From contig CAMPDV010000523.1 in assembly GCA_946699065.1 (NCBI GenBank), forward strand, positions 62,001 through 126,000: a DNA stretch of 64,000 bases, written 5' to 3'. A program made the position numbers and the translations under genes. The notes under the pieces were generated by a model. It did not search any database, was not told where the DNA came from, and saw only the letters and a list, made by a program, of their open reading frames with translations. Origin of the DNA: Loxodes magnus (lineage: Eukaryota > Ciliophora > Karyorelictea > Loxodida > Loxodidae). How positions within the stretch are numbered: position 1 is the first letter of the stretch; each line of letters starts with the position of its first letter. Positions 1 through 64,000 of the stretch are shown here, piece by piece.

Positions 1-17
1 GAAGTGCAGATGAGACG

Positions 18-506
18 GTGAGACTATGGAACGTCAAGACAGGTACCTGTAAGACCATGAGTGGTCACACTAGTTATGTATCATCTGTGGCTATATCCAG
101 TGATTCAGAGTTCATCGTATCGGGAAGTAGTGATAATACGGTGAGACTATGGAACGTCAAGACAGGTACCTGTAAGACCATGAGTGGTCACACAGATTAT
201 GTATTATCTGTGGCTATATCCAGTGATTCAGAGTTCATCGTATCGGGAAGTGCAGATTATACGGTGAGACTATGGGACGTCAAGACAGGTACCTGTAAGA
301 CCATGAGTGGTCACACTAGTTATATATCATCTGTGGCTATATCCAGTGATTCAGAGTTCATCGTATCGGGAAGTGCAGATTATACGGTGAGACTATGGAA
401 CGTCAAGACAGGTACCTGTAAGACCATGAGTGGTCACACTAGTTATGTATCATCTGTGGCTATATCCAGTGATTCAGAGTTCATCGTATCGGGAAGTTAT
501 GATTAG
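18..506 (+). pseudogene. Open WD40 stretch, 4 blades, cut by TAG 504-506
   Basis: The stretch is open from the window edge, so its true start is not visible. It holds four blades with loops TSY, TDY, TSY, TSY. It ends at the first YD->TAG stop, where the last codon of the variable b-c turn (usually TAT or AAG) is TAG. The reading frame continues unchanged after the stop. The blade order recurs in the next stretch near 950-1,320, showing local duplication. Confidence 0.6.
141..263 (+). repeat. Exemplar 123-bp monomer (one WD40 blade, 41 aa)
   Basis: One complete unit counted from the conserved VRLW codons to the next. It carries a GGTACC hexamer (Gly-Thr-Cys codons), present in nearly every unit. 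ACTAGT appears only in units whose loop is TSY or TSS, AGATCT only in VRS units, and GACGTC only in units with Trp-Asp rather than Trp-Asn. These hexamers therefore report blade alleles. The only Met codon of the unit (KTMSG) sits in an ACCATGA context with A at -3. GC is about 45%. Confidence 0.95.
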
Positions 507-509
507 ACG

Positions 510-2222
510 GTGAGACTATGGGACGTCAAGACAGGTACCTGTAAGACCATGAGTGGTCACACTAGTTATGTATCATCTGTGGCTATATCCAGTGATTCAG
601 AGTTCATCGTATCGGGAAGTGCAGATGAGACGGTGAGACTATGGAACGTCAAGACAGGTACCTGTAAGACCATGAGTGGTCACACTAGTTATGTATCATC
701 TGTGGCTATATCCAGTGATTCAGAGTTCATCGTATCGGGAAGTAGTGATAATACGGTGAGACTATGGGACGTCAAGACAGGTACCTGTAAGACCATGAGT
801 GGTCACACTAGTTATGTATCATCTGTGGCTATATCCAGTGATTCAGAGTTCATCGTATCGGGAAGTGCAGATGAGACGGTGAGACTATGGAACGTCAAGA
901 CAGGTACCTGTAAGACCATGAGTGGTCACACTAGTTATGTATTATCTGTGGCTATATCCAGTGATTCAGAGTTCATCGTATCGGGAAGTAGTGATAATAC
1001 GGTGAGACTATGGAACGTCAAGACAGGTACCTGTAAGACCATGAGTGGTCACACAGATTATGTATTATCTGTGGCTATATCCAGTGATTCAGAGTTCATC
1101 GTATCGGGAAGTGCAGATTATACGGTGAGACTATGGGACGTCAAGACAGGTACCTGTAAGACCATGAGTGGTCACACTAGTTATATATCATCTGTGGCTA
1201 TATCCAGTGATTCAGAGTTCATCGTATCGGGAAGTGCAGATTATACGGTGAGACTATGGAACGTCAAGACAGGTACCTGTAAGACCATGAGTGGTCACAC
1301 TAGTTATGTATCATCTGTGGCTATATCCAGTGATTCAGAGTTCATCGTATCGGGAAGTGCAGATGAGACGGTGAGACTATGGAACGTCAAGACAGGTACC
1401 TGTAAGACCATGAGTGGTCACACTAGTTATGTATCATCTGTGGCTATATCCAGTGATTCAGAGTTCATCGTATCGGGAAGTAGTGATAATACGGTGAGAC
1501 TATGGAACGTCAAGACAGGTACCTGTAAGACCATGAGTGGTCACACAAATTATGTAAGATCTGTGGCTATATCCAGTGATTCAGAGTTCATCGTATCGGG
1601 AAGTCATGATTATACGGTGAGACTATGGAACGTCAAGACAGGTACCTGTAAGACCATGAGTGGTCACACAAATTCTGTAAGATCTGAGGCTATATCCAGT
1701 GATTCAGAGTTCATCGTATCGGGAAGTGATGATAAGACGGTGAGACTATGGAACGTCAAGACAGGTACCTGTAAGACCATGAGTGGTCACACAAATTCTG
1801 TAAGATCTGAGGCTATATCCAGTGATTCAGAGTTCATCGTATCGGGAAGTAGAGATGAGACGGTGAGACTATGGAACGTCAAGACAGGTACCTGTAAGAC
1901 CATGAGTGGTCACACTAGTTATGTATTATCTGTGGCTATATCCAGTGATTCAGAGTTCATCGTATCGGGAAGTGCAGATTATACGGTGAGACTATGGGAC
2001 GTCAAGACAGGTACCTGTAAGACCATGAGTGGTCACACTAGTTATGTATTATCTGTGGCTATATCCATTGATTCAGAGTTCATCGTATCGGGAAGTGATG
2101 ATATTACGGTGAGACTATGGGACGTCAAGACAGGTACCTGTAAGACCATGAGTGGTCACAGACATTATGTATTATCTGTGGCTATATCCAGTGATTCAGA
2201 GTTCATCGTATCGGTAAGTTGA
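510..2222 (+). CDS. Open WD40 stretch, about 14 blades (570 aa), ends TGA 2220-2222
   Basis: Fourteen blades run in the same frame as the preceding stretch. The GTG at 510 is the Val of VRLW, not a plausible start; the first Met is at the KTMSG of the first blade. Two consecutive NSVRSEA blades (Val to Glu in strand a) lie near 1,670-1,810. The last blades (TSYVLS with Ser to Ile, DDI turn, RHYVLS, then VS-stop) recur 1,845 bp downstream, so the stop itself was duplicated. No signal peptide, nucleotide-binding or other domain is present. Whether it is expressed is unknown. Confidence 0.45.
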   Translation: MRLWDVKTGTCKTMSGHTSYVSSVAISSDSEFIVSGSADETVRLWNVKTGTCKTMSGHTSYVSSVAISSDSEFIVSGSSDNTVRLWDVKTGTCKTMSGHTSYVSSVAISSDSEFIVSGSADETVRLWNVKTGTCKTMSGHTSYVLSVAISSDSEFIVSGSSDNTVRLWNVKTGTCKTMSGHTDYVLSVAISSDSEFIVSGSADYTVRLWDVKTGTCKTMSGHTSYISSVAISSDSEFIVSGSADYTVRLWNVKTGTCKTMSGHTSYVSSVAISSDSEFIVSGSADETVRLWNVKTGTCKTMSGHTSYVSSVAISSDSEFIVSGSSDNTVRLWNVKTGTCKTMSGHTNYVRSVAISSDSEFIVSGSHDYTVRLWNVKTGTCKTMSGHTNSVRSEAISSDSEFIVSGSDDKTVRLWNVKTGTCKTMSGHTNSVRSEAISSDSEFIVSGSRDETVRLWNVKTGTCKTMSGHTSYVLSVAISSDSEFIVSGSADYTVRLWDVKTGTCKTMSGHTSYVLSVAISIDSEFIVSGSDDITVRLWDVKTGTCKTMSGHRHYVLSVAISSDSEFIVSVS

Positions 2223-2588
2223 GATGAGACGGTGAGACTATGGGACGTCAAGACAGGTACCTGTAAGACCATGAGTGGTCACACTAGTTATATATCATCT
2301 GTGGCTATATCCAGTGATTCAGAGTTCATCGTATCGGGAAGTGCAGATGAGACGGTGAGACTATGGAACGTCAAGACAGGTACCTGTAAGACCATGAGTG
2401 GTCACACTAGTTATGTATTATCTGTGGCTATATCCATTGATTCAGAGTTCATCGTATCGGAAAGTGATGATAAGACGGTGAGACTATGGGACGTCAAGAC
2501 AGGTACCTGTAAGACCATGAGTGGTCACACTAGTTATGTATCATCTGTGGCTATATCCAGTGATTCAGAGTTCATCGTATCGGGAAGT
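1940..2588 (+). repeat. Higher-order repeat B, copy 1 (includes a stop)
   Basis: About five blades repeated at 3,785-4,433 (15 units), carrying the VS-TGA stop at 2,220 and 4,065. Confidence 0.75.
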
Positions 2589-2591
2589 TGA
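2232..2591 (+). pseudogene. Open WD40 stretch, 3 blades, ends TGA 2589-2591
   Basis: Three blades: TSYISS with ADE; TSYVLS with the Ile, Glu, DDK allele group; TSYVSS ending GS-stop. The equivalent blades 15 units later (4,077-4,440) are identical except that the third reads SDN instead of the stop. One of the two copies therefore gained or lost the TGA after duplication. Confidence 0.6.
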
Positions 2592-2600
2592 GATTATACG

Positions 2601-4067
2601 GTGAGACTATGGGACGTCAAGACAGGTACCTGTAAGACCATGAGTGGTCACACTGGTCATGTATCATCTGTGGCTATATCCAGTGATTCAGAGTTCATCG
2701 TATCGGGAAGTAGTGATAATACGGTGAGACTATGGGACGTCAAGACAGGTACCTGTAAGACCATGAGTGGTCACACTAGTTATGTATCATCTGTGGCTAT
2801 ATCCATTGATTCAGAGTTCATCGTATCGGAAAGTGATAATAAGACGGTGAGACTATGGGACGTCAAGACAGGTACCTGTAAGACCATGAGTGGTCACACA
2901 GATTATGTATTATCTGTGGCTATATCCAGTGATTCAGAGTTCATCGTATCGGGAAGTGCAGATTATACGGTGAGACTATGGGACGTCAAGACAGGTACCT
3001 GTAAGACCATGAGTGGTCACACTAGTTATATATCATCTGTGGCTATATCCAGTGATTCAGAGTTCATCGTATCGGGAAGTGCAGATTATACGGTGAGACT
3101 ATGGAACGTCAAGACAGGTACCTGTAAGACCATGAGTGGTCACACTAGTTATGTATCATCTGTGGCTATATCCAGTGATTCAGAGTTCATCGTATCGGGA
3201 AGTGCAGATGAGACGGTGAGACTATGGAACGTCAAGACAGGTACCTGTAAGACCATGAGTGGTCACACTAGTTATGTATCATCTGTGGCTATATCCAGTG
3301 ATTCAGAGTTCATCGTATCGGGAAGTAGTGATAATACGGTGAGACTATGGAACGTCAAGACAGGTACCTGTAAGACCATGAGTGGTCACACAGATTATGT
3401 ATTATCTGTGGCTATATCCATTGATTCAGAGTTCATCGTATCGGGAAGTGATGATATTACGGTGAGACTATGGGACGTCAAGACAGGTACCTGTAAGACC
3501 ATGAGTGGTCACAGACATTATGTATCATCTGTGGCTATATCCAGTGATTCAGAGTTCATCGTATCGGGAAGTGCAGATTATACGGTGAGACTATGGAACG
3601 TCAAGACAGGTACCTGTAAGACCATGAGTGGTCACACTGGTCATGTATCATCTGTGGCTATATCCAGTGATTCAGAGTTCATCGTATCGGTAAGTAGAGA
3701 TGAGACGGTGAGACTATGGAACGTCAAGACAGGTACCTGTAAGACCATGAGTGGTCACACAAATTCTGTAAGATCTGAGGCTATATCCAGTGATTCAGAG
3801 TTCATCGTATCGGGAAGTGCAGATTATACGGTGAGACTATGGGACGTCAAGACAGGTACCTGTAAGACCATGAGTGGTCACACTAGTTATGTATTATCTG
3901 TGGCTATATCCATTGATTCAGAGTTCATCGTATCGGGAAGTGATGATATTACGGTGAGACTATGGGACGTCAAGACAGGTACCTGTAAGACCATGAGTGG
4001 TCACAGACATTATGTATTATCTGTGGCTATATCCAGTGATTCAGAGTTCATCGTATCGGTAAGTTGA
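2601..4067 (+). CDS. Open WD40 stretch, 12 blades (488 aa), ends TGA 4065-4067
   Basis: Twelve blades, starting with a TGHVSS loop. A rare DNK turn (GAT AAT AAG) near 2,832 recurs only near 11,080. One blade near 3,691 has GGTAAGT (VSVSRDE) without a stop. The final VS-stop shows the same GTAAGT immediately followed by TGA. The last three blades duplicate 1,970-2,222. Confidence 0.45.
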   Translation: MRLWDVKTGTCKTMSGHTGHVSSVAISSDSEFIVSGSSDNTVRLWDVKTGTCKTMSGHTSYVSSVAISIDSEFIVSESDNKTVRLWDVKTGTCKTMSGHTDYVLSVAISSDSEFIVSGSADYTVRLWDVKTGTCKTMSGHTSYISSVAISSDSEFIVSGSADYTVRLWNVKTGTCKTMSGHTSYVSSVAISSDSEFIVSGSADETVRLWNVKTGTCKTMSGHTSYVSSVAISSDSEFIVSGSSDNTVRLWNVKTGTCKTMSGHTDYVLSVAISIDSEFIVSGSDDITVRLWDVKTGTCKTMSGHRHYVSSVAISSDSEFIVSGSADYTVRLWNVKTGTCKTMSGHTGHVSSVAISSDSEFIVSVSRDETVRLWNVKTGTCKTMSGHTNSVRSEAISSDSEFIVSGSADYTVRLWDVKTGTCKTMSGHTSYVLSVAISIDSEFIVSGSDDITVRLWDVKTGTCKTMSGHRHYVLSVAISSDSEFIVSVS

Positions 4068-4433
4068 GATGAGACGGTGAGACTATGGGACGTCAAGACA
4101 GGTACCTGTAAGACCATGAGTGGTCACACTAGTTATATATCATCTGTGGCTATATCCAGTGATTCAGAGTTCATCGTATCGGGAAGTGCAGATGAGACGG
4201 TGAGACTATGGAACGTCAAGACAGGTACCTGTAAGACCATGAGTGGTCACACTAGTTATGTATTATCTGTGGCTATATCCATTGATTCAGAGTTCATCGT
4301 ATCGGAAAGTGATGATAAGACGGTGAGACTATGGGACGTCAAGACAGGTACCTGTAAGACCATGAGTGGTCACACTAGTTATGTATCATCTGTGGCTATA
4401 TCCAGTGATTCAGAGTTCATCGTATCGGGAAGT
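3785..4433 (+). repeat. Higher-order repeat B, copy 2
   Basis: Partner of 1,940-2,588. The final turn reads SDN here and TGA there. Confidence 0.75.
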
Positions 4434-7400
4434 AGTGATAATACGGTGAGACTATGGAACGTCAAGACAGGTACCTGTAAGACCATGAGTGGTCACACAA
4501 ATTCTGTAAGATCTGAGGCTATATCCAGTGATTCAGAGTTCATCGTATCGGGAAGTAGTGATAATACGGTGAGACTATGGGACGTCAAGACAGGTACCTG
4601 TAAGACCATGAGTGGTCACACTAGTTATGTATCATCTGTGGCTATATCCAGTGATTCAGAGTTCATCGTATCGGGAAGTGCAGATTATACGGTGAGACTA
4701 TGGGACGTCAAGACAGGTACCTGTAAGACCATGAGTGGTCACACTGGTCATGTATCATCTGTGGCTATATCCAGTGATTCAGAGTTCATCGTATCGGGAA
4801 GTAGAGATGAGACGGTGAGACTATGGAACGTCAAGACAGGTACCTGTAAGACCATGAGTGGTCACACAGATTATGTATCATCTGTGGCTATATCCAGTGA
4901 TTCAGAGTTCATCGTATCGGGAAGTGATGATATTACGGTGAGACTATGGGACGTCAAGACAGGTACCTGTAAGACCATGAGTGGTCACACTAGTTATGTA
5001 TCATCTGTGGCTATATCCAGTGATTCAGAGTTCATCGTATCGGGAAGTGCAGATTATACGGTGAGACTATGGAACGTCAAGACAGGTACCTGTAAGACCA
5101 TGAGTGGTCACAGACATTATGTATCATCTGTGGCTATATCCAGTGATTCAGAGTTCATCGTATCGGGAAGTAGAGATGAGACGGTGAGACTATGGAACGT
5201 CAAGACAGGTACCTGTAAGACCATGAGTGGTCACACTAGTTATATATCATCTGTGGCTATATCCAGTGATTCAGAGTTCATCGTATCGGGAAGTGCAGAT
5301 TATACGGTGAGACTATGGGACGTCAAGACAGGTACCTGTAAGACCATGAGTGGTCACACTAGTTATGTATTATCTGTGGCTATATCCATTGATTCAGAGT
5401 TCATCGTATCGGAAAGTGATGATAAGACGGTGAGACTATGGGACGTCAAGACAGGTACCTGTAAGACCATGAGTGGTCACACTAGTTATGTATCATCTGT
5501 GGCTATATCCAGTGATTCAGAGTTCATCGTATCGGGAAGTAGTGATAATACGGTGAGACTATGGAACGTCAAGACAGGTACCTGTAAGACCATGAGTGGT
5601 CACACAAATTCTGTAAGATCTGAGGCTATATCCATTGATTCAGAGTTCATCGTATCGGGAAGTGCAGATGAGACGGTGAGACTATGGAACGTCAAGACAG
5701 GTACCTGTAAGACCATGAGTGGTCACACTAGTTATATATCATCTGTGGCTATATCCAGTGATTCAGAGTTCATCGTATCGGGAAGTAGTGATAATACGGT
5801 GAGACTATGGAACGTCAAGACAGGTACCTGTAAGACCATGAGTGGTCACACAGATTATGTATTATCTGTGGCTATATCCATTGATTCAGAGTTCATCGTA
5901 TCGGGAAGTGCAGATTATACGGTGAGACTATGGAACGTCAAGACAGGTACCTGTAAGACCATGAGTGGTCACACTAGTTATGTATTATCTGTGGCTATAT
6001 CCAGTGATTCAGAGTTCATCGTTTCGGGAAGTAGTGATAATACGGTGAGACTATGGAACGTCAAGACAGGTACCTGTAAGACCATGAGTGGTCACACAAA
6101 TTCTGTAAGATCTGAGGCTATATCCATTGATTCAGAGTTCATCGTATCGGGAAGTAGAGATGAGACGGTGAGACTATGGAACGTCAAGACAGGTACCTGT
6201 AAGACCATGAGTGGTCACAGACATTATGTATTATCTGTGGCTATATCCAGTGATTCAGAGTTCATCGTATCGGGAAGTAGAGATGAGACGGTGAGACTAT
6301 GGAACGTCAAGACAGGTACCTGTAAGACCATGAGTGGTCACACTAGTTATGTATCATCTGTGGCTATATCCATTGATTCAGAGTTCATCGTATCGGGAAG
6401 TAGAGATGAGACGGTGAGACTATGGAACGTCAAGACAGGTACCTGTAAGACCATGAGTGGTCACACAGATTATGTATCATCTGTGGCTATATCCAGTGAT
6501 TCAGAGTTCATCGTATCGGGAAGTGATGATATTACGGTGAGACTATGGGACGTCAAGACAGGTACCTGTAAGACCATGAGTGGTCACACTAGTTATGTAT
6601 CATCTGTGGCTATATCCATTGATTCAGAGTTCATCGTATCGGGAAGTAGAGATGAGACGGTGAGACTATGGAACGTCAAGACAGGTACCTGTAAGACCAT
6701 GAGTGGTCACACTAGTTATGTATCATCTGTGGCTATATCCAGTGATTCAGAGTTCATCGTATCGGGAAGTAGTGATAATACGGTGAGACTATGGAACGTC
6801 AAGACAGGTACCTGTAAGACCATGAGTGGTCACACTAGTTATGTATCATCTGTGGCTATATCCAGTGATTCAGAGTTCATCGTATCGGGAAGTAGTGATA
6901 ATACGGTGAGACTATGGAACGTCAAGACAGGTACCTGTAAGACCATGAGTGGTCACACTAGTTATGTATCATCTGTGGCTATATCCAGTGATTCAGAGTT
7001 CATCGTATCGGGAAGTGATGATTATACGGTGAGACTATGGAACGTCAAGGCAGGTACCTGTAAGACCATGAGTGGTCACACTAGTTATATATCATCTGTG
7101 GCTATATCCAGTGATTCAGAGTTCATCGTATCGGGAAGTGCAGATGAGACGGTGAGACTATGGAACGTCAAGACAGGTACCTGTAAGACCATGAGTGGTC
7201 ACACTAGTTATGTATTATCTGTGGCTATATCCATTGATTCAGAGTTCATCGTATCGGAAAGTGATGATAAGACGGTGAGACTATGGGACGTCAAGACAGG
7301 TACCTGTAAGACCATGAGTGGTCACACTAGTTATGTATCATCTGTGGCTATATCCAGTGATTCAGAGTTCATCGTATCGGGAAGTAGTGATAATACGGTG

Positions 7401-10400
7401 AGACTATGGAACGTCAAGACAGGTACCTGTAAGACCATGAGTGGTCACACAAATTCTGTAAGATCTGAGGCTATATCCATTGATTCAGAGTTCATCGTAT
7501 CGGGAAGTAGAGATGAGACGGTGAGACTATGGAACGTCAAGACAGGTACCTGTAAGACCATGAGTGGTCACACTAGTTATATATCATCTGTGGCTATATC
7601 CAGTGATTCAGAGTTCATCGTATCGGGAAGTAGTGATAATACGGTGAGACTATGGAACGTCAAGACAGGTACCTGTAAGACCATGAGTGGTCACACAGAT
7701 TATGTATTATCTGTGGCTATATCCAGTGATTCAGAGTTCATCGTATCGGGAAGTGCAGATTATACGGTGAGACTATGGAACGTCAAGACAGGTACCTGTA
7801 AGACCATGAGTGGTCACACTAGTTATGTATCATCTGTGGCTATATCCAGTGATTCAGAGTTCATCGTATCGGGAAGTAGTGATAATACGGTGAGACTATG
7901 GAACGTCAAGACAGGTACCTGTAAGACCATGAGTGGTCACACAAATTCTGTAAGATCTGAGGCTATATCCAGTGATTCAGAGTTCATCGTATCGGGAAGT
8001 AGTGATAATACGGTGAGACTATGGGACGTCAAGACAGGTACCTGTAAGACCATGAGTGGTCACACTAGTTATGTATCATCTGTGGCTATATCCAGTGATT
8101 CAGAGTTCATCGTATCGGGAAGTGCAGATTATACGGTGAGACTATGGGACGTCAAGACAGGTACCTGTAAGACCATGAGTGGTCACACTGGTCATGTATC
8201 ATCTGTGGCTATATCCAGTGATTCAGAGTTCATCGTATCGGGAAGTAGAGATGAGACGGTGAGACTATGGAACGTCAAGACAGGTACCTGTAAGACCATG
8301 AGTGGTCACACAGATTATGTATCATCTGTGGCTATATCCAGTGATTCAGAGTTCATCGTATCGGGAAGTGATGATATTACGGTGAGACTATGGGACGTCA
8401 AGACAGGTACCTGTAAGACCATGAGTGGTCACACTAGTTATGTATCATCTGTGGCTATATCCAGTGATTCAGAGTTCATCGTATCGGGAAGTGCAGATTA
8501 TACGGTGAGACTATGGAACGTCAAGACAGGTACCTGTAAGACCATGAGTGGTCACAGACATTATGTATCATCTGTGGCTATATCCAGTGATTCAGAGTTC
8601 ATCGTATCGGGAAGTGCAGATTATACGGTGAGACTATGGGACGTCAAGACAGGTACCTGTAAGACCATGAGTGGTCACACTAGTTATATATCATCTGTGG
8701 CTATATCCAGTGATTCAGAGTTCATCGTATCGGGAAGTGCAGATTATACGGTGAGACTATGGGACGTCAAGACAGGTACCTGTAAGACCATGAGTGGTCA
8801 CACTAGTTATGTATTATCTGTGGCTATATCCATTGATTCAGAGTTCATCGTATCGGAAAGTGATGATAAGACGGTGAGACTATGGGACGTCAAGACAGGT
8901 ACCTGTAAGACCATGAGTGGTCACACTAGTTATGTATCATCTGTGGCTATATCCAGTGATTCAGAGTTCATCGTATCGGGAAGTAGTGATAATACGGTGA
9001 GACTATGGAACGTCAAGACAGGTACCTGTAAGACCATGAGTGGTCACACAAATTCTGTAAGATCTGAGGCTATATCCATTGATTCAGAGTTCATCGTATC
9101 GGGAAGTAGAGATGAGACGGTGAGACTATGGAACGTCAAGACAGGTACCTGTAAGACCATGAGTGGTCACACTAGTTATATATCATCTGTGGCTATATCC
9201 AGTGATTCAGAGTTCATCGTATCGGGAAGTAGTGATAATACGGTGAGACTATGGAACGTCAAGACAGGTACCTGTAAGACCATGAGTGGTCACACAGATT
9301 ATGTATTATCTGTGGCTATATCCATTGATTCAGAGTTCATCGTATCGGGAAGTGCAGATTATACGGTGAGACTATGGAACGTCAAGACAGGTACCTGTAA
9401 GACCATGAGTGGTCACACTAGTTATGTATTATCTGTGGCTATATCCAGTGATTCAGAGTTCATCGTTTCGGGAAGTAGTGATAATACGGTGAGACTATGG
9501 AACGTCAAGACAGGTACCTGTAAGACCATGAGTGGTCACACAAATTCTGTAAGATCTGAGGCTATATCCATTGATTCAGAGTTCATCGTATCGGGAAGTA
9601 GAGATGAGACGGTGAGACTATGGAACGTCAAGACAGGTACCTGTAAGACCATGAGTGGTCACAGACATTATGTATTATCTGTGGCTATATCCAGTGATTC
9701 AGAGTTCATCGTATCGGGAAGTAGAGATGAGACGGTGAGACTATGGAACGTCAAGACAGGTACCTGTAAGACCATGAGTGGTCACACTAGTTATGTATCA
9801 TCTGTGGCTATATCCATTGATTCAGAGTTCATCGTATCGGGAAGTAGAGATGAGACGGTGAGACTATGGAACGTCAAGACAGGTACCTGTAAGACCATGA
9901 GTGGTCACACAGATTATGTATCATCTGTGGCTATATCCAGTGATTCAGAGTTCATCGTATCGGGAAGTGATGATATTACGGTGAGACTATGGGACGTCAA
10001 GACAGGTACCTGTAAGACCATGAGTGGTCACACTAGTTATGTATCATCTGTGGCTATATCCATTGATTCAGAGTTCATCGTATCGGGAAGTAGAGATGAG
10101 ACGGTGAGACTATGGAACGTCAAGACAGGTACCTGTAAGACCATGAGTGGTCACACTAGTTATGTATCATCTGTGGCTATATCCAGTGATTCAGAGTTCA
10201 TCGTATCGGGAAGTAGTGATAATACGGTGAGACTATGGAACGTCAAGACAGGTACCTGTAAGACCATGAGTGGTCACACTAGTTATGTATCATCTGTGGC
10301 TATATCCAGTGATTCAGAGTTCATCGTATCGGGAAGTAGTGATAATACGGTGAGACTATGGAACGTCAAGACAGGTACCTGTAAGACCATGAGTGGTCAC

Positions 10401-10832: not shown

Positions 10833-10841
10833 GATGAGACG

Positions 10842-12923: not shown

Positions 12924-12932
12924 GATTATACG

Positions 12933-49966: not shown

Positions 49967-50602
49967 GTGAGACTATGGGACGTCAAGACAGGTACCTGTA
50001 AGACCATGAGTGGTCACACAAATTATGTATTATCTGTGGCTATATCCAGTGATTCAGAGTTCATTGTATCGGGAAGTAGTGATAATACGGTGAGACTATG
50101 GAACGTCAAGACAGGTACCTGTAAGACCATGAGTGGTCACACAGATTATGTATTATCTGTGGCTATATCCATTGATTCAGAGTTCATCGTATCGGGAAGT
50201 GATGATATTACGGTGAGACTATGGAACGTCAAGACAGGTACCTGTAAGACCATGAGTGGTCACACTAGTTATGTATTATCTGTGGCTATATCCAGTGATT
50301 CAGAGTTCATCGTATCGGGAAGTAGAGATGAGACGGTGAGACTATGGGACGTCAAGACAGGTACCTGTAAGACCATGAGTGGTCACAGACATTATGTATC
50401 ATCTGTGGCTATATCCAGTGATTCAGAGTTCATCGTATCGGGAAGTGATGATATTACGGTGAGACTATGGGACGTCAAGACAGGTACCTGTAAGACCATG
50501 AGTGGTCACTCTAGTTCTGTATTATCTGTGGCTATATCCAGTGATTCAGAGTTCATCGTATCGGGAAGTAGAGATGAGACGGTGAGACTATGGAACATAT
50601 AG
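49967..50602 (+). pseudogene. Five-blade open WD40 stretch ending NI-TAG (copy 2)
   Basis: Copy of 45,293-45,928, 38 units downstream, with the same protein. TAG is at 50,600-50,602. Confidence 0.62.
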
Positions 50603-50620
50603 ACAGGTACCTGTAAGACC

Positions 50621-51139
50621 ATGAGTGGTCACACAAATTCTGTAAGATCTGTGGCTATATCCAGTGATTCAGAGTTCATCGTATCGGGAAGTGGAGATTA
50701 TACGGTGAGACTATGGAACGTCAAGACAGGTACCTGTAAGACCATGAGTTGTTACACTAGTTATATATCATCTGTGGCTATATCCAGTGATTCAGAGTTC
50801 ATCGTATCGGGAAGTGATGATAAGACGGTGAGACTATGGGACGTCAAGACAGGTACCTGTAAGACCATGAGTGGTCACACTAGTTATGTATCATCTGTGG
50901 CTATATCCAGTGATTCAGAGTTCATCGTATCGGGAAGTGCAGATTATACGGTGAGACTATGGAACGTCAAGACAGGTACCTGTAAGACCATGAGTGGTCA
51001 CACTAGTTATGTATTATCTGTGGCTATATCCAGTGATTCAGAGTTCATCGTATCGGGAAGTGATGATATTACGGTGAGACTATGGAACGTCAAGACAGGT
51101 ACCTGTAAGACCATGAGTGGTCACACTAGTTATGTATGA
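50621..51139 (+). pseudogene. Four-blade open WD40 stretch with a GH-to-CY blade (copy 2)
   Basis: Copy of 45,947-46,465. The Cys-Tyr replacement is at 50,750-50,755. It is followed by SYV-TGA and, after a 57-bp remnant, GS-TGA at 51,185-51,187. Confidence 0.62.
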
Positions 51140-51196
51140 TCTGTGGCTATATCCAGTGATTCAGAGTTCATCGTATCGGGAAGTTGAGATTATACG

Positions 51197-54706: not shown

Positions 54707-54709
54707 TCT

Positions 54710-55198
54710 GTGGCTATATCCAGTGATTCAGAGTTCATCGTATCGGGAAGTGATGATGAGACGGTGAGACTATGGGACGTCAAGACAGGTACCTGTAAGA
54801 CCATGAGTGGTCACACAAATTATGTATTATCTGTGGCTATATCCAGTGATTCAGAGTTCATTGTATCGGGAAGTAGTGATAATACGGTGAGACTATGGAA
54901 CGTCAAGACAGGTACCTGTAAGACCATGAGTGGTCACACAGATTATGTATTATCTGTGGCTATATCCAGTGATTCAGAGTTCATCGTATCGGGAAGTCAT
55001 GATTATACGGTGAGACTATGGAACGTCAAGACAGGTACCTGTAAGACCATGAGTGGTCACACTAGTTATGTATTATCTGTGGCTATATCCAGTGATTCAG
55101 AGTTCATCGTATCGGGAAGTGATGATATTACGGTGAGACTATGGAACGTCAAGACAGGTACCTGTAAGACCATGAGTGGTCACACTAGTTATGTATGA
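54710..55198 (+). pseudogene. Four-blade open WD40 unit between SYV-TGA stops
   Basis: DDE/TNYVLS, SDN/TDYVLS, HDY/TSYVLS, DDI/TSYV-stop, exactly 492 bp. It reappears with the start of the following unit at 58,523-59,240, 31 units downstream, stop included. Confidence 0.6.
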
Positions 55199-55430
55199 TC
55201 TGTGGCTATATCCAGTGATTCAGAGTTCATCGTATCGGGAAGTGATGATGAGACGGTGAGACTATGGGACGTCAAGACAGGTACCTGTAAGACCATGAGT
55301 GGTCACACAAATTATGTATTATCTGTGGCTATATCCAGTGATTCAGAGTTCATTGTATCGGGAAGTAGTGATAATACGGTGAGACTATGGAACGTCAAGA
55401 CAGGTACCTGTAAGACCATGAGTGGTCACA
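54720..55430 (+). repeat. Higher-order repeat E, copy 1
   Basis: DDE, SDN, HDY, DDI-stop, DDE, SDN/RHY blade order, repeated at 58,533-59,243 (31 units). Confidence 0.8.
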
Positions 55431-55768
55431 GACATTATGTATCATCTGTGGCTATATCCAGTGATTCAGAGTTCATCGTATCGGGAAGTGCAGATTATAC
55501 GGTGAGACTATGGGACGTCAAGACAGGTACCTGTAAGACCATGAGTGGTCACACAAATTCTGTAAGATCTGTGGCTATATCCAGTGATTCAGAGTTCATC
55601 GTATCGGGAAGTGCAGATTATACGGTGAGACTATGGAACGTCAAGACAGGTACCTGTAAGACCATGAGTGGTCACTCTAGTTCTGTATTATCTGTGGCTA
55701 TATCCAGTGATTCAGAGTTCATCGTATCGGGAAGTAGAGATTCGACAGTGAGACTATGGAACATATAG
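55202..55768 (+). pseudogene. Open WD40 stretch, 4.5 blades, ends NI-TAG 55766-55768
   Basis: DDE/TNYVLS and SDN/RHYVSS, then an SSSVLS loop with an RDS turn (TCG ACA) and ATA TAG. The RDS-ACA-ATA-TAG linkage differs from the RDE-linked copies at 45.9 and 50.6 kb, so the NI-stop exists on two turn backgrounds. Confidence 0.6.
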
Positions 55769-55786
55769 ACAGGTACCTGTAAGACC

Positions 55787-56551
55787 ATGAGTGGTCACAC
55801 AAATTCTGTAAGATCTGTGGCTATATCCAGTGATTCAGAGTTCATCGTATCGGGAAGTGGAGATTATACGGTGAGACTATGGAACGTCAAGACAGGTACC
55901 TGTAAGACCATGAGTTGCTACACTAGTTATATATCATCTGTGGCTATATCCAGTGATTCAGAGTTCATCGTATCGGGAAGTGATGATAAGACGGTGAGAC
56001 TATGGGACGTCAAGACAGGTACCTGTAAGACCATGAGTGGTCACACTAGTTATGTACCATCTGTGGCTATATCCAGTGATTCAGAGTTCATCGTATCGGG
56101 AAGTGCAGATTATACGGTGAGACTATGGGACGTCAAGACAGGTACCTGTAAGACCATGAGTGGTCACACTAGTTATGTATCATCTGTGGCTATATCCAGT
56201 GATTCAGAGTTCATCGTATCGGAAAGTGATGATAATACGGTGAGACTATGGGACGTCAAGACAGGTACCTGTAAGACCATGAGTGGTCACAGACATTATG
56301 TATCATCTGTGGCTATATCCAGTGATTCAGAGTTCATCGTATCGGGAAGTGCAGATTATACGGTGAGACTATGGAACGTCAAGACAGGTACCTGTAAGAC
56401 CATGAGTGGTCACACAAATTATGTATTATCTGTGGCTATATCCAGTGATTCAGAGTTCATCGTATCGGGAAGTGATGATATTACGGTGAGACTATGGAAC
56501 GTCAAGACAGGTACCTGTAAGACCATGAGTGGTCACACTAGTTATGTATGA
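55787..56551 (+). pseudogene. Six-blade open WD40 stretch with a CY blade, ends TGA 56549-56551
   Basis: TNSVRS/GDY, then GH to CY with TGC rather than TGT (55,916), DDK, and a TSYVPS loop (CCA at 56,057), shared only with 57,533 and 59,870. A Glu-DDN turn lies near 56,221. Confidence 0.6.
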
Positions 56552-56554
56552 TCT

Positions 56555-59011
56555 GTGGCTATATCCATTGATTCAGAGTTCATCGAATCGGGAAGTGATG
56601 ATATTACGGTGAGACTATGGGACGTCAAGACAGGTACCTGTAAGACCATGAGTGGTCACAGACATTATGTATCATCTGTGGCTATATCCAGTGATTCAGA
56701 GTTCATCGTATCGGGAAGTGCAGATTATACGGTGAGACTATGGAACGTCAAGACAGGTACCTGTAAGACCATGAGTGGTCACACTAGTTATGTATTATCT
56801 GTGGCTATATCCAGTGATTCAGAGTTCATCGTATCGGGAAGTGATGATAAGACGGTGAGACTATGGAACGTCAAGACAGGTACCTGTAAGACCATGAGTG
56901 GTCACTCTAGTTCTGTATTATCTGTGGCTATATCCAGTGATTCAGAGTTCATCGTATCGGGAAGTAGTGATAAGACGGTGAGACTATGGAACGTCAAGAC
57001 AGGTACCTGTAAGACCATGAGTGGTCACACAAATTATGTATTATCTGTGGCTATATCCAGTGATTCAGAGTTCATTGTATCGGGAAGTGATGATATTACG
57101 GTGAGACTATGGGACGTCAAGACAGGTACCTGTAAGACCATGAGTGGTCACACAAATTCTGTATATGCTGTGGCTATATCCAGTGATTCAGAGTTCATCG
57201 TATCGGGAAGTGATGATATTACGGTGAGACTATGGGACGTCAAGACAGGTACCTGTAAGACCATGAGTGGTCACAGACATTATGTATCATCTGTGGCTAT
57301 ATCCAGTGATTCAGAGTTCATCGTATCGGGAAGTGCAGATTATACGGTGAGACTATGGGACGTCAAGACAGGTACCTGTAAGACCATGAGTGGTCACAGA
57401 CATTATGTATTATCTGTGGCTATATCCAGTGATTCAGAGTTCATCGTATCGGGAAGTGATGATAAGACGGTGAGACTATGGGACGTCAAGACAGGTACCT
57501 GTAAGACCATGAGTGGTCACACTAGTTATGTACCATCTGTGGCTATATCCAGTGATTCAGAGTTCATCGTATCGGGAAGTGCAGATTATACGGTGAGACT
57601 ATGGAACGTCAAGACAGGTACCTGTAAGACCATGAGTGGTCACACAAATTATGTATTATCTGAGGCTATATCCATTGATTCAGAGTTCATCGTATCGGAA
57701 AGTGATGATAATACGGTGAGACTATGGGACGTCAAGACAGGTACCTGTAAGACCATGAGTGGTCACAGACATTATGTATCATCTGTGGCTATATCCAGTG
57801 ATTCAGAGTTCATCGTATCGGGAAGTGCAGATTATACGGTGAGACTATGGAACGTCAAGACAGGTACCTGTAAGACCATGAGTGGTCACACAAATTATGT
57901 ATTATCTGTGGCTATATCCAGTGATTCAGAGTTCATCGTATCGGGAAGTGATGATATTACGGTGAGACTATGGAACGTCAAGACAGGTACCTGTAAGACC
58001 ATGAGTGGTCACACTAGTTATGTATCATCTGTGGCTATATCCAGTGATTCAGAGTTCATCGTATCGGGAAGTGCAGATGAGACGGTGAGACTATGTAACG
58101 TCAAGACAGGTACCTGTAAGACCATGAGTGGTCACACAAATTCTGTAAGATCTGAGGCTATATCCATTGATTCAGAGTTCATCGTATCGGGAAGTGATGA
58201 TATTACGGTGAGACTATGGGACGTCAAGACAGGTACCTGTAAGACCATGAGTGGTCACAGACATTATGTATTATCTGTGGCTATATCCAGTGATTCAGAG
58301 TTCATTGTATCGGGAAGTGATGATATTACGGTGAGACTATGGGACGTCAAGACAGGTACCTGTAAGACCATGAGTGGTCACACTAGTTATGTATCATCTG
58401 TGGCTATATCCAGTGATTCAGAGTTCATCGTATCGGGAAGTGCAGATTATACGGTGAGACTATGGAACGTCAAGACAGGTACCTGTAAGACCATGAGTGG
58501 TCACACTAGTTATATATCATCTGTGGCTATATCCAGTGATTCAGAGTTCATCGTATCGGGAAGTGATGATGAGACGGTGAGACTATGGGACGTCAAGACA
58601 GGTACCTGTAAGACCATGAGTGGTCACACAAATTATGTATTATCTGTGGCTATATCCAGTGATTCAGAGTTCATTGTATCGGGAAGTAGTGATAATACGG
58701 TGAGACTATGGAACGTCAAGACAGGTACCTGTAAGACCATGAGTGGTCACACAGATTATGTATTATCTGTGGCTATATCCAGTGATTCAGAGTTCATCGT
58801 ATCGGGAAGTCATGATTATACGGTGAGACTATGGAACGTCAAGACAGGTACCTGTAAGACCATGAGTGGTCACACTAGTTATGTATTATCTGTGGCTATA
58901 TCCAGTGATTCAGAGTTCATCGTATCGGGAAGTGATGATATTACGGTGAGACTATGGAACGTCAAGACAGGTACCTGTAAGACCATGAGTGGTCACACTA
59001 GTTATGTATGA
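56555..59011 (+). CDS. Open WD40 stretch, 20 blades (818 aa), ends TGA 59009-59011
   Basis: Starts with FIES (GAA at 56,585). Conserved Trp is replaced by Cys at 58,094-58,096. It contains a copy of the Glu-DDN/RHYVSS/ADY/TNYVLS block 12 units after its source at 56.2 kb. It ends with the four-blade unit shared with 54,710-55,198. Confidence 0.47.
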   Translation: MAISIDSEFIESGSDDITVRLWDVKTGTCKTMSGHRHYVSSVAISSDSEFIVSGSADYTVRLWNVKTGTCKTMSGHTSYVLSVAISSDSEFIVSGSDDKTVRLWNVKTGTCKTMSGHSSSVLSVAISSDSEFIVSGSSDKTVRLWNVKTGTCKTMSGHTNYVLSVAISSDSEFIVSGSDDITVRLWDVKTGTCKTMSGHTNSVYAVAISSDSEFIVSGSDDITVRLWDVKTGTCKTMSGHRHYVSSVAISSDSEFIVSGSADYTVRLWDVKTGTCKTMSGHRHYVLSVAISSDSEFIVSGSDDKTVRLWDVKTGTCKTMSGHTSYVPSVAISSDSEFIVSGSADYTVRLWNVKTGTCKTMSGHTNYVLSEAISIDSEFIVSESDDNTVRLWDVKTGTCKTMSGHRHYVSSVAISSDSEFIVSGSADYTVRLWNVKTGTCKTMSGHTNYVLSVAISSDSEFIVSGSDDITVRLWNVKTGTCKTMSGHTSYVSSVAISSDSEFIVSGSADETVRLCNVKTGTCKTMSGHTNSVRSEAISIDSEFIVSGSDDITVRLWDVKTGTCKTMSGHRHYVLSVAISSDSEFIVSGSDDITVRLWDVKTGTCKTMSGHTSYVSSVAISSDSEFIVSGSADYTVRLWNVKTGTCKTMSGHTSYISSVAISSDSEFIVSGSDDETVRLWDVKTGTCKTMSGHTNYVLSVAISSDSEFIVSGSSDNTVRLWNVKTGTCKTMSGHTDYVLSVAISSDSEFIVSGSHDYTVRLWNVKTGTCKTMSGHTSYVLSVAISSDSEFIVSGSDDITVRLWNVKTGTCKTMSGHTSYV

Positions 59012-59243
59012 TCTGTGGCTATATCCAGTGATTCAGAGTTCATCGTATCGGGAAGTGATGATGAGACGGTGAGACTATGGGACGTCAAGACAGGTACCTG
59101 TAAGACCATGAGTGGTCACACAAATTATGTATTATCTGTGGCTATATCCAGTGATTCAGAGTTCATTGTATCGGGAAGTAGTGATAATACGGTGAGACTA
59201 TGGAACGTCAAGACAGGTACCTGTAAGACCATGAGTGGTCACA
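58533..59243 (+). repeat. Higher-order repeat E, copy 2
   Basis: Partner of 54,720-55,430, including the SYV-TGA at 59,009. Confidence 0.8.
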
Positions 59244-60553
59244 GACATTATGTATCATCTGTGGCTATATCCAGTGATTCAGAGTTCATCGTATCGGAAA
59301 GTGATGATAATACGGTGAGACTATGGGACGTCAAGACAGGTACCTGTAAGACCATGAGTGGTCACAGACATTATGTATCATCTGTGGCTATATCCAGTGA
59401 TTCAGAGTTCATCGTATCGGGAAGTGCAGATTATACGGTGAGACTATGGGACGTCAAGACAGGTACCTGTAAGACCATGAGTGGTCACAGACATTATGTA
59501 TCATCTGTGGCTATATCCAGTGATTCAGAGTTCATCGTATCGGGAAGTGCAGATTATACGGTGAGACTATGGAACGTCAAGACAGGTACCTGTAAGACCA
59601 TGAGTGGTCACACTAGTTATATATCATCTGTGGCTATATCCAGTGATTCAGAGTTCATCGTATCGGGAAGTGCAGATTATACGGTGAGACTATGGAACGT
59701 CAAGACAGGTACCTGTAAGACCATGAGTTGTTACACTAGTTATATATCATCTGTGGCTATATCCAGTGATTCAGAGTTCATCGTATCGGGAAGTGATGAT
59801 AAGACGGTGAGACTATGGGACGTCAAGACAGGTACCTGTAAGACCATGAGTGGTCACACTAGTTATGTACCATCTGTGGCTATATCCAGTGATTCAGAGT
59901 TCATCGTATCGGGAAGTGCAGATTATACGGTGAGACTATGGAACGTCAAGACAGGTACCTGTAAGACCATGAGTGGTCACACAAATTATGTATTATCTGT
60001 GGCTATATCCATTGATTCAGAGTTCATCGTATCGGGAAGTTATGATAAGACGGTGAGACTATGGGACGTCAAGACAGGTACCTGTAAGACCATGAGTGGT
60101 CACACTAGTTCTGTATATGCTGTGGCTATATCCAGTGATTCAGAGTTCATCGTATCGGGAAGTTATGATAAGACGGTGAGACTATGGGACGTCAAGACAG
60201 GCACCTGTAAGACCATGAGTGGTTACACTAGTTCTGTATATGCTGTGGCTATATCCAGTGATTCAGAGTTCATCGTATCGGGAAGTTATGATAAGACGGT
60301 GAGACTATGGGACGTCAAGACAGGTACCTGTAAGACCATAAGTGGTCACACTAGTTCTGTATATGCTGTGGCTATATCCAGTGATTCAGAGTTCATCGTA
60401 TCGGGAAGTGATTATACGGTGAGACTATGGGACGTCAAGACAGGTACCTGTAAGACCATGAGTGGTCACACAAATTCTGTATTATCTGTGGCTATATCCA
60501 GTGATTCAGAGTTCATCGCATCGGCAAGTAGAGATGAGACGGTGAGACTATGA
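59015..60553 (+). CDS. Open WD40 stretch, 12.5 blades (512 aa), ends at Trp-to-TGA 60551-60553
   Basis: Contains a CY blade (59,729), a TSYVPS loop (59,870), then a run of three YDK turns with TSSVYAV loops (60,040-60,400). The run includes GGC at about 60,201, GH to GY at 60,224, Met to Ile at 60,338, and a blade lacking one turn codon after 60,409. FIAS (GCA) is at 60,518. It stops where the conserved TGG is TGA, the only nonsense change at that Trp. Confidence 0.45.
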   Translation: MAISSDSEFIVSGSDDETVRLWDVKTGTCKTMSGHTNYVLSVAISSDSEFIVSGSSDNTVRLWNVKTGTCKTMSGHRHYVSSVAISSDSEFIVSESDDNTVRLWDVKTGTCKTMSGHRHYVSSVAISSDSEFIVSGSADYTVRLWDVKTGTCKTMSGHRHYVSSVAISSDSEFIVSGSADYTVRLWNVKTGTCKTMSGHTSYISSVAISSDSEFIVSGSADYTVRLWNVKTGTCKTMSCYTSYISSVAISSDSEFIVSGSDDKTVRLWDVKTGTCKTMSGHTSYVPSVAISSDSEFIVSGSADYTVRLWNVKTGTCKTMSGHTNYVLSVAISIDSEFIVSGSYDKTVRLWDVKTGTCKTMSGHTSSVYAVAISSDSEFIVSGSYDKTVRLWDVKTGTCKTMSGYTSSVYAVAISSDSEFIVSGSYDKTVRLWDVKTGTCKTISGHTSSVYAVAISSDSEFIVSGSDYTVRLWDVKTGTCKTMSGHTNSVLSVAISSDSEFIASASRDETVRL

Positions 60554-60580
60554 GACGTCAAGACAGGTACCTGTAAGACC

Positions 60581-61270
60581 ATGAGTGGTCACAGACATTA
60601 TGTATCATCTGTGGCTATATCCAGTGATTCAGAGTTCATCGTATCGGGAAGTGCAGATTATACGGTGAGACTATGGAACGTCAAGACAGGTACCTGTAAG
60701 ACCATGAGTGGTCACTCTAGTTCTGTATTATCTGTGGCTATATCCAGTGATTCAGAGTTCATTGTATCGGGAAGTGATGATATTACGGTGAGACTATGGG
60801 ACGTCAAGACAGGTACCTGTAAGACCATGAGTGGTCACACTAGTTATATATCATATGTGGCTATATCCAGTGATTCAGAGTTCATCGTATCGGGAAGTGC
60901 AGATTATACGGTGAGACTATGGAACGTCAAGACAGGTACCTGTAAGACCATGAGTGGTCACACAAATTATGTATTATCTGAGGCTATATCCAGTGATTCA
61001 GAGTTCATCGTATCGGGAAGTAGTGATAATACGGTGAGACTATGGAACGTCAAGACAGGTACCTGTAAGACCATGAGTGGTCACACTAGTTATGTATCAT
61101 CTGTGGCTATATCCAGTGATTCAGAGTTCATCGTATCGGGAAGTAGAGATGAGACGGTGAGACTATGGAACGTCAAGACAGGTACCTGTAAGACCATGAG
61201 TGGTCACACTAGTTATGTATTATCTGTGGCTATATCCAGTGATTCAGAGTTCATCGTATCGGGAAGTTGA
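60581..61270 (+). pseudogene. Open WD40 stretch, 5.5 blades (229 aa), ends TGA 61268-61270
   Basis: RHYVSS, SSSVLS and TSYIS blades with a private Ser to Tyr at 60,854, and VLSEA near 60,975. The stop is the GS->TGA form. Confidence 0.57.
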
Positions 61271-61279
61271 GATTATACG

Positions 61280-62407
61280 GTGAGACTATGGGACGTCAAG
61301 ACAGGTACCTGTAAGACCATGAGTGGTCACACTGGTCATGTATCATCTGTGGCTATATCCAGTGATTCAGAGTTCATCGTATCGGTAAGTAGAGATGAGA
61401 CGGTGAGACTATGGAACGTCAAGACAGGTACCTGTAAGACCATGAGTGGTCACACAAATTCTGTAAGATCTGTGGCTATATCCAGTGATTCAGAGTTCAT
61501 CGTATCGGGAAGTAGTGATAAGACGGTGAGACTATGGAACGTCAAGACAGGTACCTGTAAGACCATGAGTGGTCACTCTAGTTCTGTATTATCTGTGGCT
61601 ATATCCAGTGATTCAGAGTTCATCGTATCGGGAAGTAGTGATAATACGGTGAGACTATGGAACGTCAAGACAGGTACCTGTAAGACCATGAGTGGTCACA
61701 CTGGTCATGTATCATCTGTGGCTATATCCAGTGATTCAGAGTTCATCGTATCGGGAAGTCATGATTATACGGTGAGACTATGGAACGTCAAGACAGGTAC
61801 CTGTAAGACCATGAGTGGTCACACAAATTATGTATTATCTGTGGCTATATCCAGTGATTCAGAGTTCATCGTATCGGGAAGTAGTGATAATACGGTGAGA
61901 CTATGGAACGTCAAGACAGGTACCTGTAAGACCATGAGTGGTCACACTGGTCATGTATCATCTGTGGCTATATCCAGTGATTCAGAGTTCATCGTATCGG
62001 GAAGTCATGATTATACGGTGAGACTATGGAACGTCAAGACAGGTACCTGTAAGACCATGAGTGGTCACACAAATTATGTATTATCTGTGGCTATATCCAG
62101 TGATTCAGAGTTCATCGTATCGGGAAGTGATGATTATACGGTGAGACTATGGAACGTCAAGGCAGGTACCTGTAAGACCATGAGTGGTCACACTAGTTAT
62201 GTATCATCTGTGGCTATATCCAGTGATTCAGAGTTCATCGAATCGGGAAGTGATGATATTACGGTGAGACTATGGGACGTCAAGACAGGTACCTGTAAGA
62301 CCATGAGTGGTCACACTGGTCATGTATCATCTGTGGCTATATCCAGTGATTCAGAGTTCATCGTATCGGGAAGTAGAGATTCGACAGTGAGACTATGGAA
62401 CATATAG
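61280..62407 (+). pseudogene. Open WD40 stretch, 9 blades (375 aa), ends NI-TAG 62405-62407
   Basis: Two copies of a two-blade unit, TGHVSS/HDY plus TNYVLS, lie side by side (about 61,700-62,070). A KAG blade lies near 62,158, FIES (GAA) is at 62,240, then the RDS turn and ATA TAG. Confidence 0.57.
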
Positions 62408-62425
62408 ACAGGTACCTGTAAGACC

Positions 62426-63391
62426 ATGAGTGGTCACACAAATTCTGTAAGATCTGTGGCTATATCCAGTGATTCAGAGTTCATCGTATCGGGAAGTGGA
62501 GATTATACGGTGAGACTATGGAACGTCAAGACAGGTACCTGTAAGACCATGAGTTGTTACACTAGTTATATATCATCTGTGGCTATATCCAGTGATTCAG
62601 AGTTCATCGTATCGGGAAGTGATGATAAGACGGTGAGACTATGGGACGTCAAGACAGGTACCTGTAAGACCATGAGTGGTCACACTAGTTATGTATCATC
62701 TGTGGCTATATCCAGTGATTCAGAGTTCATCGTATCGGGAAGTGCAGATTATACGGTGAGACTATGGAACGTCAAGACAGGTACCTGTAAGACCATGAGT
62801 GGTCACACTAGTTATGTATTATCTGTGGCTATATCCAGTGATTCAGAGTTCATCGTATCGGGAAGTGATGATATTACGGTGAGACTATGGAACGTCAAGA
62901 CAGGTGCCTGTAAGACCATGAGTGGTAACACTAGTTATGTATCATCTGTGGCTATATCCAGTGATTCAGAGTTCATCGTATCGGGAAGTAGAGATGAGAC
63001 GGTGATACTATGGGACGTCAAGACAGGTACCTGTAAGACCATGAGTGGTCACACAAATTATGTATTATCTGTGGCTATATCCAGTGATTCAGAGTTCATC
63101 GTATCGGGAAGTGCAGATTATACGGTGAGACTATGGAACGTCAAGACAGGTACCTGTAAGACCATGAGTGGTCACACTAGTTATATATCATCTGTGGCTA
63201 TATCCAGTGATTCAGAGTTCATCGTATCGGGAAGTGCAGATTATACGGTGAGACTATGGAACGTCAAGACAGGTACCTGTAAGACCATGAGTGGTCACTC
63301 TAGTTCTGTATTATCTGTGGCTATATCCAGTGATTCAGAGTTCATCGTATCGGGAAGTAGAGATTCGACAGTGAGACTATGGAACATATAG
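62426..63391 (+). pseudogene. Open WD40 stretch, 8 blades (321 aa), ends NI-TAG 63389-63391
   Basis: Fourth copy of the TNSVRS/GDY plus CY-blade module (62,555-62,560). Three private changes lie within 105 bp: Thr to Ala at 62,906, His of GH to Asn at 62,927 and Arg to Ile at 63,005. Two of them hit otherwise near-invariant positions, suggesting a locally relaxed or error-rich patch. Confidence 0.57.
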
Positions 63392-63409
63392 ACAGGTACC
63401 TGTAAGACC

Positions 63410-63730
63410 ATGAGTGGTCACACAAATTCTGTATTATCTGTGGCTATATCCATTGATTCAGAGTTCATCGTATCGGGAAGTGATGATATTACGGTGAGAC
63501 TATGGGACGTCAAGACAGGTACCTGTAAGACCATGAGTGGTCACAGACATTATGTATCATCTGTGGCTATATCCAGTGATTCAGAGTTCATCGTATCGGG
63601 AAGTAATGATTATACGGTGAGACTATGGGACGTCAAGACAGGTACCTGTAAGACCATGAGTGGTCACACTAGTTATGTATATGCTGTGGCTATATCCAGT
63701 GATTCAGAGTTCATCGTATCGGGAAGTTGA
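63410..63730 (+). pseudogene. Open WD40 fragment, 2.5 blades, ends TGA 63728-63730
   Basis: TNSVLS with Ile and DDI, RHYVSS with an NDY turn, TSYVYAV then GS-stop. Confidence 0.57.
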
Positions 63731-64000
63731 GATTATACGGTGAGACTATGGGACGTCAAGACAGGTACCTGTAAGACCATGAGTGGTCACACAAATTATG
63801 TATTATCTGTGGCTATATCCAGTGATTCAGAGTTCATCGTATCGGGAAGTAGAGATTCGACAGTGAGACTATGGAACATATAGACAGGTACCTGTAAGAC
63901 CATGAGTGGTCACACTAGTTATGTATATGCTGTGGCTATATCCATTGATTCAGAGTTCATCGTATCGGGAAGTGATGATATTACGGTGAGACTATGGAAC
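63731..64000 (+). pseudogene. Last two blades, one NI-TAG stop, array continues past the window
   Basis: TNYVLS/RDS followed by ATA TAG at 63,881-63,883, then TSYVYAV/DDI up to the window edge. The NI-stop spacings at the right end (984 and 492 bp) are whole numbers of units. Confidence 0.6.

Follow-up and report, generated by a model that had tools for sequence, protein, structure and literature searches.

The closest described relatives of the system reported here are the ten HNWD genes of Podospora anserina (het-d, het-e and NWD), which are NACHT-WD40 incompatibility genes (see also PMC2873952). According to PMC1805685 and PMC12222747, their near-identical WD40 repeats undergo concerted evolution across the family and carry variable residues on the interaction face, and codons 7, 9, 25 and 27 of the repeat are reported to be positively selected (PMC1805685). 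Near-identical blades are also a trait of recently amplified or designed WD40 propellers (PDB 2ymu, 7bie and 7big; see also PMC9218822 and PMC6805158); unlike these single proteins, the case described below involves a hypervariable blade pool that is shared by a large family and present in ~404,000 satellite copies. We analyzed a window of 64,000 nucleotides (the whole stretch, positions 62,001 to 126,000 of contig CAMPDV010000523.1, hereafter C523, of the ciliate Loxodes magnus), which is a single tandem array with a period of 123 bp and 520 copies (Tandem Repeats Finder) from its first to its last position; the consensus of the 123-bp unit (41 aa) is a WD40 blade. The explanation that best covers the whole of the evidence, and that we regard as probable, is that the array belongs to a genome-scale satellite made of blades from recognition genes encoding a RING-like head and a propeller. 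The window would be a stretch of this satellite, with a unit that corresponds to one WD40 blade of a large ciliate gene family, whose protein has a RING-like head rich in Cys and His, followed by a Q-rich linker, pentapeptide repeats and, in most copies read, a propeller of seven blades. The middle blades are homogenized between genes, presumably by exchange, with the presumed ligand-face codons 19, 20, 22, 38 and 40 staying diverse. The proteins may recognize variable ligands via the propeller and would act through the head, a putative ligase, probably by ubiquitination. Blade DNA would also have been amplified into long arrays, one of them 9 kb upstream of a family gene; the slot diversity of such arrays would be inherited variation, and their translation into giant receptors is improbable. 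The slot pattern, the code, the gene anatomy of the copies read, the homogenization and the copy number of the unit are observed, whereas recognition, ligase activity, the untranslated state of the arrays and the direction of exchange are inferred.

The window contains 521 anchors, which delimit 520 intervals, 515 of them exactly 123 bp long; among these 515 units there are 223 distinct sequences. Codons 18, 19, 20, 22, 38 and 40, a post hoc set picked after inspecting the array, account for 76.5% of the pairwise nucleotide differences among 516 window units (41 codons), versus 14.6% on average and at most 67.0% for 100,000 random six-codon sets. Two less biased checks agree with this result. 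The same six slots hold 73.4% of the differences among 107 blades from separate genes, and codons 20, 22, 38 and 40, which correspond to HNWD codons 7, 9, 25 and 27 in our alignment of the motifs, account for 56% of the differences in the window and 58% in the gene blades. The initial annotation of the window, made from its letters alone, had placed the differences in a few codons; this holds, and the codons it listed agree with our unit counts. Its list of slots mixes two classes, however. Codons 19, 20, 22, 38 and 40 vary in genes as well as in the array, whereas variation at codons 5 (Asn/Asp), 24 (Val/Glu), 28 (Ser/Ile) and 36 (Gly/Glu/Val/Ala) is a feature of the array, gene blades being almost invariant there (Asp5 in 102/107, Val24 in 105/107, Ser28 in 102/107 and Gly36 in 103/107). 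A second, distinct WD40 satellite with 126-bp (42-aa) units was encountered at L001 to L008 (C1503) and L028 (C6957); it varies chiefly at codons 14, 15, 20, 22, 38 and 40 (45 distinct sequences in 249 units), i.e., at nearly the same slots. Further rows of WD40 matches lie on C9, C119, C272, C620 and C1832.

Loxodes magnus is described, in the part of PMC11441545 cited here, as using genetic code table 27, in which UGA is the sole stop and also encodes Trp. At a tubulin locus, Gln positions hold TAA or TAG and Trp positions hold TGA, and the conserved Trp of blade 6 in the gene family is TGA in 21 of 23 gene copies and TTA in the other two. Under this code, 57 TAA, TAG and TGA codons in 54 of the 516 window units become sense; such codons also occur in 56 of the 107 gene blades, most often encoding Gln (slot 40) or Trp (slot 22). 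The TGA and TAG codons that the initial annotation had recorded in the slots are therefore present but need not be stops, being read as W and Q, and apparent stops in arrays of this kind are amino acids under table 27. A nonsense-riddled pseudogene array, considered as a candidate, was rejected on the same readings. Tubulin genes themselves occur in dense clusters of several subfamilies (on C64, C441, C629 and other contigs; at least 150 matches).

The gene family was approached from C523 itself, where a gene at 222,434, read under table 27, encodes pentapeptide repeats (PF00805, E=4e-8) and WD40 blades (PF00400, E=1.2e-90) behind a Cys/His-rich start and a Q-rich linker. In a genome search with its 539-aa head, the best 80 matches all cover residues 1 to 536-539, and the putative zinc ligands C6-C9-C25-C27-C30-C33-C46-H49 are kept in all seven heads read (one of which is identical to that of C523 across the ligand stretch). 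A closing-blade pattern has 307 matches in the genome and was found in 13 of the 23 copies fetched, a detection rate that suggests a family of ~540 genes. The region behind the head was read in 32 stretches, 31 of them distinct: 23 extend to the tail and eight to about the fifth blade; the duplicate copy (L058) was excluded from the gene-copy set, in which L066 and L069 have identical blades. Judged by spacing, blades 1 and 6 are separated by four middle blades in 20 of the 23 copies, the exceptions being L051 with three, L047 with five and the C523 gene with six; blade 1 was directly read in C523 only and is implied elsewhere by the head match. All 23 copies read to the tail end in blades 6 and 7, and in none of them does a long array follow the head. 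A literature search covering titles and abstract openings returned no account of this gene family and, within the library searched, none joining Loxodes with WD40.

Middle blades are homogenized between these genes. From an estimated ~126 middle blades in the 31 copies, 107 were kept after dropping those that were not 123 bp long or failed an anchor/similarity filter. Within this set, the framework outside the slots differs by 1.8% from gene to gene and by 1.5% inside a gene, while silent differences between genes affect 1.3% of same-residue codons; a looser set of 76 gene units, some perhaps out of register, gave 3.7% for the framework and 1.3% for silent changes. Blade 6, by contrast, differs by 14.4% across the 23 genes, with 30.5% of same-residue codons silently different, and blade 7 is diverged between genes by eye. 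The high silent divergence of blade 6 next to near-identical middle blades suggests that blade 6 is older and constrained at the protein level and that the middle blades form a shared pool. The slots of this pool are diverse, with 97 distinct combinations in 107 blades and distinct sets in 30 of the 31 copies. Common slot variants of the gene blades (codon 23 included) comprise 26 nonsynonymous changes and one synonymous change (p=0.047 versus possible changes), common framework variants comprise three and none, respectively, and rare framework variants look neutral (40 nonsynonymous, 17 synonymous). Comparison of these sequences supports an HNWD signature in the gene family, with blades homogenized between genes and slots kept diverse; the HNWD-like logic that the initial annotation had invoked is supported at this level by both the matching slots and the homogenized blades. 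HNWD-type diversification has been described in fungi with NACHT heads; its slot logic recurs here in a ciliate family whose head is RING-like, suggesting that recognition repertoires can be built by blade shuffling more than once.

The family departs from HNWD in several respects. No NACHT or HET domain was seen, the head being RING-like and accompanied by pentapeptide repeats; the estimated gene number is several hundred, against ten in HNWD; a single seven-bladed propeller fits 20 of 23 copies; and the blade also forms satellites, in a ciliate host. In HNWD genes, the NACHT domain sits between the head and the WD40 repeats. Of the effector domains suggested for the array ends, NACHT was not found in the one gene scanned, that beside the visible end: it has a RING-like head, and NACHT is absent among the nine Pfam families listed for the 539 residues of this head (E up to 1); no separate NB-ARC search was made. 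A NACHT effector was dropped as a candidate after a genome search that returned 31 weak matches, none on C523, and no link to the array. In TRIM E3 ligases such as TRIM5, an N-terminal RING and a long linker precede a variable domain that binds the ligand at the C-terminus. The order of head, linker and variable C-terminal domain is the same in the family described here, with a RING-like head and a putative ligase function. Unlike in TRIM proteins, neither B-box nor SPRY is among the nine Pfam rows for the head or the best 25 of 45 rows for the whole gene, and a WD40 propeller with pentapeptide repeats takes their place.

The features of the window referred to below are as follows.

1..64000, forward strand: inner stretch of a 213-kb array of 123-bp WD40 blades that extends beyond the window on both sides.
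1..30913, forward strand: segment of an unbroken frame under table 27 (contig positions 48,488-92,913; 361 units; 44 kb).
30..890, forward strand: seven successive units taken for the structure model (287 aa).
30030..30137, forward strand: unit of 108 bp with 15 bases deleted and the frame intact.
30753..31270, forward strand: irregular zone with units of 161, 125 and 109 bp, which disrupts the frame.
31271..64000, forward strand: second unbroken frame (contig positions 93,271-136,313; 350 units).
60299..60418, forward strand: unit of 120 bp lacking one codon of the b-c turn, with the frame intact.

The best model of the seven units (mean pLDDT, 94.4; pTM, 0.91) is a seven-bladed propeller that matches 5yzv with a TM-score of 0.94; 2ymu and the WRAP designs are also among the best PDB matches. 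The two marks of a WD40 beta-propeller are thus present: the gene beside the array matches the WD40 profile, and in the model of the window units four-stranded blades close into a propeller. DSSP assignment on the model places codons 18 to 20 in the d-a loop and codon 22 where strand a begins; the b-c turn holds codons 38 and 40. Of the other variable codons, 5 and 28 occupy the c-d and a-b turns of the opposite side, and 24 and 36 lie within strands. In the general topology of WD40 propellers, the upper face comprises the regions that hold codons 18 to 20, 22, 38 and 40. Deduced from strand order rather than from coordinates, the upper-face position that the initial annotation had assigned to the variable codons would hold for these six. 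An upper-face placement is likewise stated for HET-E in the cited part of PMC1805685.

On the contig, the array runs from base 1 to ~213,235 of C523 (243,724 bp) and comprises 1,735 anchors, with 1,648 of 1,734 intervals of 123 bp. The array is probably not the receptor itself, because it contains frame breaks, ends mid-unit without a closing blade and, taken as a whole, carries an excess of framework changes. Frame-breaking units number 19 of 1,734 (12 distinct), and a 28-base stretch of the irregular zone at 30753-31270 occurs a single time in the genome. The visible end of the array breaks off within a unit, without closing blade or tail (the other, 5' end lies beyond the contig). Of 13 framework residues of our choosing, one or more are changed in 564 of 1,648 array units (34%) versus 15 of 107 gene units (14%; p=6e-6), and the excess holds for distinct units (p=6e-5). 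Translation of the array into one giant protein, a chain of propellers made of hundreds of blades, would be in keeping with the frames unbroken over 361 and 350 units, with a code in which the only stop, TGA, also reads as Trp, and with the confident folding of the best seven-unit model. We nevertheless consider it very improbable, given sixteen one-base length changes in addition to the irregular zone within 213 kb, the missing closing blade at the visible end, and framework changes such as H17Y/Q and V24E that are common across the whole array; these frame breaks, the truncated end and the lack of a long array after all 23 heads led us to reject the giant protein as the leading explanation.

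The satellite from which the window is taken has a very high copy number in the genome. A 30-mer around the WD motif has 404,304 exact matches (183,090 plus 221,214) in the assembly (705.73 Mb in 7,843 contigs), which amounts to ~49.7 Mb (7.0% of the assembly), counting one unit per match. The array shows what defines a satellite, namely a long head-to-tail arrangement, high copy number and higher-order repeats. As ~7% of the assembled genome consists of this blade, the question is raised of a repertoire gene seeding a satellite and of the satellite returning diversity, and some of the "low-complexity tandem repeats" masked in such genomes are derived from coding sequence. An ordinary satellite, in which the slots would be the relic of a founder set or mutational hot spots and the genes would have no recognition role, would account for the lags of 7, 22, 24, 31 and 38 units at which unit similarity is favored, as in usual satellite amplification. 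It would also account for the rare array variants, which are spread evenly over the codons (8 of 62 in the six slots) with 47 nonsynonymous to 15 synonymous changes, a neutral ratio; of the common ones (in at least 17 of 1,647 units), 25 of 41 fall in the six slots. We judge this explanation unlikely, since the same slots vary in genes, nearly always by amino-acid changes, the blade 6 protein is kept despite its silent divergence, the second WD40 satellite varies at nearly the same codons, and the four main slots match those reported for HNWD. The initial annotation had set a recognition repertoire against a neutral satellite. The HNWD reading fits the gene family, the window itself as a receptor is not supported, and the alternative is a false one: the window is best explained as satellite DNA whose units are blades of the repertoire.

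Several observations weigh against this reading. The best RING model for the head, zf-RING_UBOX, has an E value of 0.054, under the Pfam cut-off. Units of 122 or 124 bp occur in four of the 23 gene copies (L046, L047, L050 and L051; in L050, two length changes compensate each other), so that either these units represent pseudogenes or assembly errors, or genes too carry frame breaks. Only two of the five structure models are good (pLDDT, 94.4 and 92.5), the other three being weaker (77.1, 73.6 and 65.3). In the window alone, framework changes affect 114 of 516 units (22%), which is not significantly above the 15 of 107 gene units (p=0.067), and codons 17, 24 and 36 of the chosen framework set yield nearly all of the excess in the array. 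The ratio of nonsynonymous to synonymous changes among rare array variants was dropped as proof of an untranslated array, since that of the genes (40 to 17) is similar. Unbroken array frames reach 361 units, though such long frames carry less weight under table 27, where only TGA can stop translation and is also read as Trp. Finally, the order of repeats in the assembly may be wrong; the authors of PMC11441545, in the part cited, name misassembly of low-complexity repeats as the likely cause of the size difference between the MIC and MAC assemblies.

Alleles along the array change near 129 kb of C523, outside the window. The ~84 kb on the gene side carry GAC at codon 5 and TAT-GCT at codons 22 and 23, as genes do, whereas the part containing the window has AAC or GAC at codon 5, along with TTA/TCA and TCT. 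This gene-like section lies closest to the C523 gene, as would be expected if arrays were spare blades that are gene-converted into nearby RING-WD40 genes and renew the repertoire, in the manner of the VSG, pilin and immunoglobulin pseudogene archives. A single framework pool is common to array and gene blades (differences of 2.05% gene to array, 1.80% gene to gene and 1.77% array to array). Moreover, three of the six slot combinations of the C523 gene are found in the array, versus 7 of 101 for the other 30 copies (p=0.010), and two of its six blades are there verbatim. A 28-base pattern across the array end also occurs on C54, C2546 and C2777 (four contigs in all), where a head gene of matching orientation follows 9 to 11 kb downstream of it, as far as the positions of junction and head gene tell. 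However, only four of the 107 gene blades, two of them from the adjacent gene, are present verbatim in the C523 array, and the distal array including the window is rich in GAG and ATT at codon 40 and AGT at codon 38, which are rare or absent in genes. The local-sharing test concerns one gene with six blades, L052 is no more distant from the array (mean nearest distance of 1.5), and shared ancestry accounts for the sharing equally well. We treat the supply of blades from arrays to genes as a serious, though improbable, rival. Equally tentative is the wider picture of a combinatorial recognition system in which ~500 RING-propeller genes, many at contig ends and each with about four swappable hypervariable blades, would be fed from a ~50-Mb blade archive, with at least one array directly upstream of a gene. 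A satellite of blades derived from the presumed recognition genes remains our preferred reading of the array.

VSG and var families are subtelomeric antigen archives with tandem or silent copies. Like them, the family described here is large, often located near contig ends, and has tandem copies close by; unlike them, it offers no evidence of switching or surface antigens, and the chromosome ends are unproven. Among the first 100 of the 307 closing-blade places, 30 are located no more than 30 kb from a contig start; 29 of these 30 face outward (p=6e-8). A weaker bias was obtained with the 80 scored heads, for which those at most 30 kb from a contig start comprise 32 outward and 9 inward; many of the inward heads are on short contigs, and the C1-C1499 subset gives 18 outward versus 2. 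Of 20 plus-strand closing-blade places, 13 are no farther than 30 kb from the contig end that they face, a proportion that is too high, as the 20 were hand-picked from 47 with some interior-looking ones omitted. Both places on C50 are at least 133 kb from its end, whereas C25 and C32 have one gene near each end. Telomeres of Loxodes are stated to have eluded detection (PMC11441545, in the part cited). It is possible that the RING-WD40 genes are a subtelomeric family in a species with undetected telomeres. Chromosome ends are not established by these positions, because the satellite that terminates C523 also lies inside a contig. This 100-bp AT-rich satellite fills the end of C523 from ~228,140 to 243,724 (L026 and L027). 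One of its 27-mers has 38,319 matches in the genome, including some inside the 1,173-kb contig C43 (937-959 kb), which weakened the tip beyond the array as a telomere candidate. Between the array and the gene at 222,434 lie ~9 kb of AT-rich DNA, and in this spacer, at ~214-222 kb, there are frames that by eye resemble a reverse-transcriptase element.

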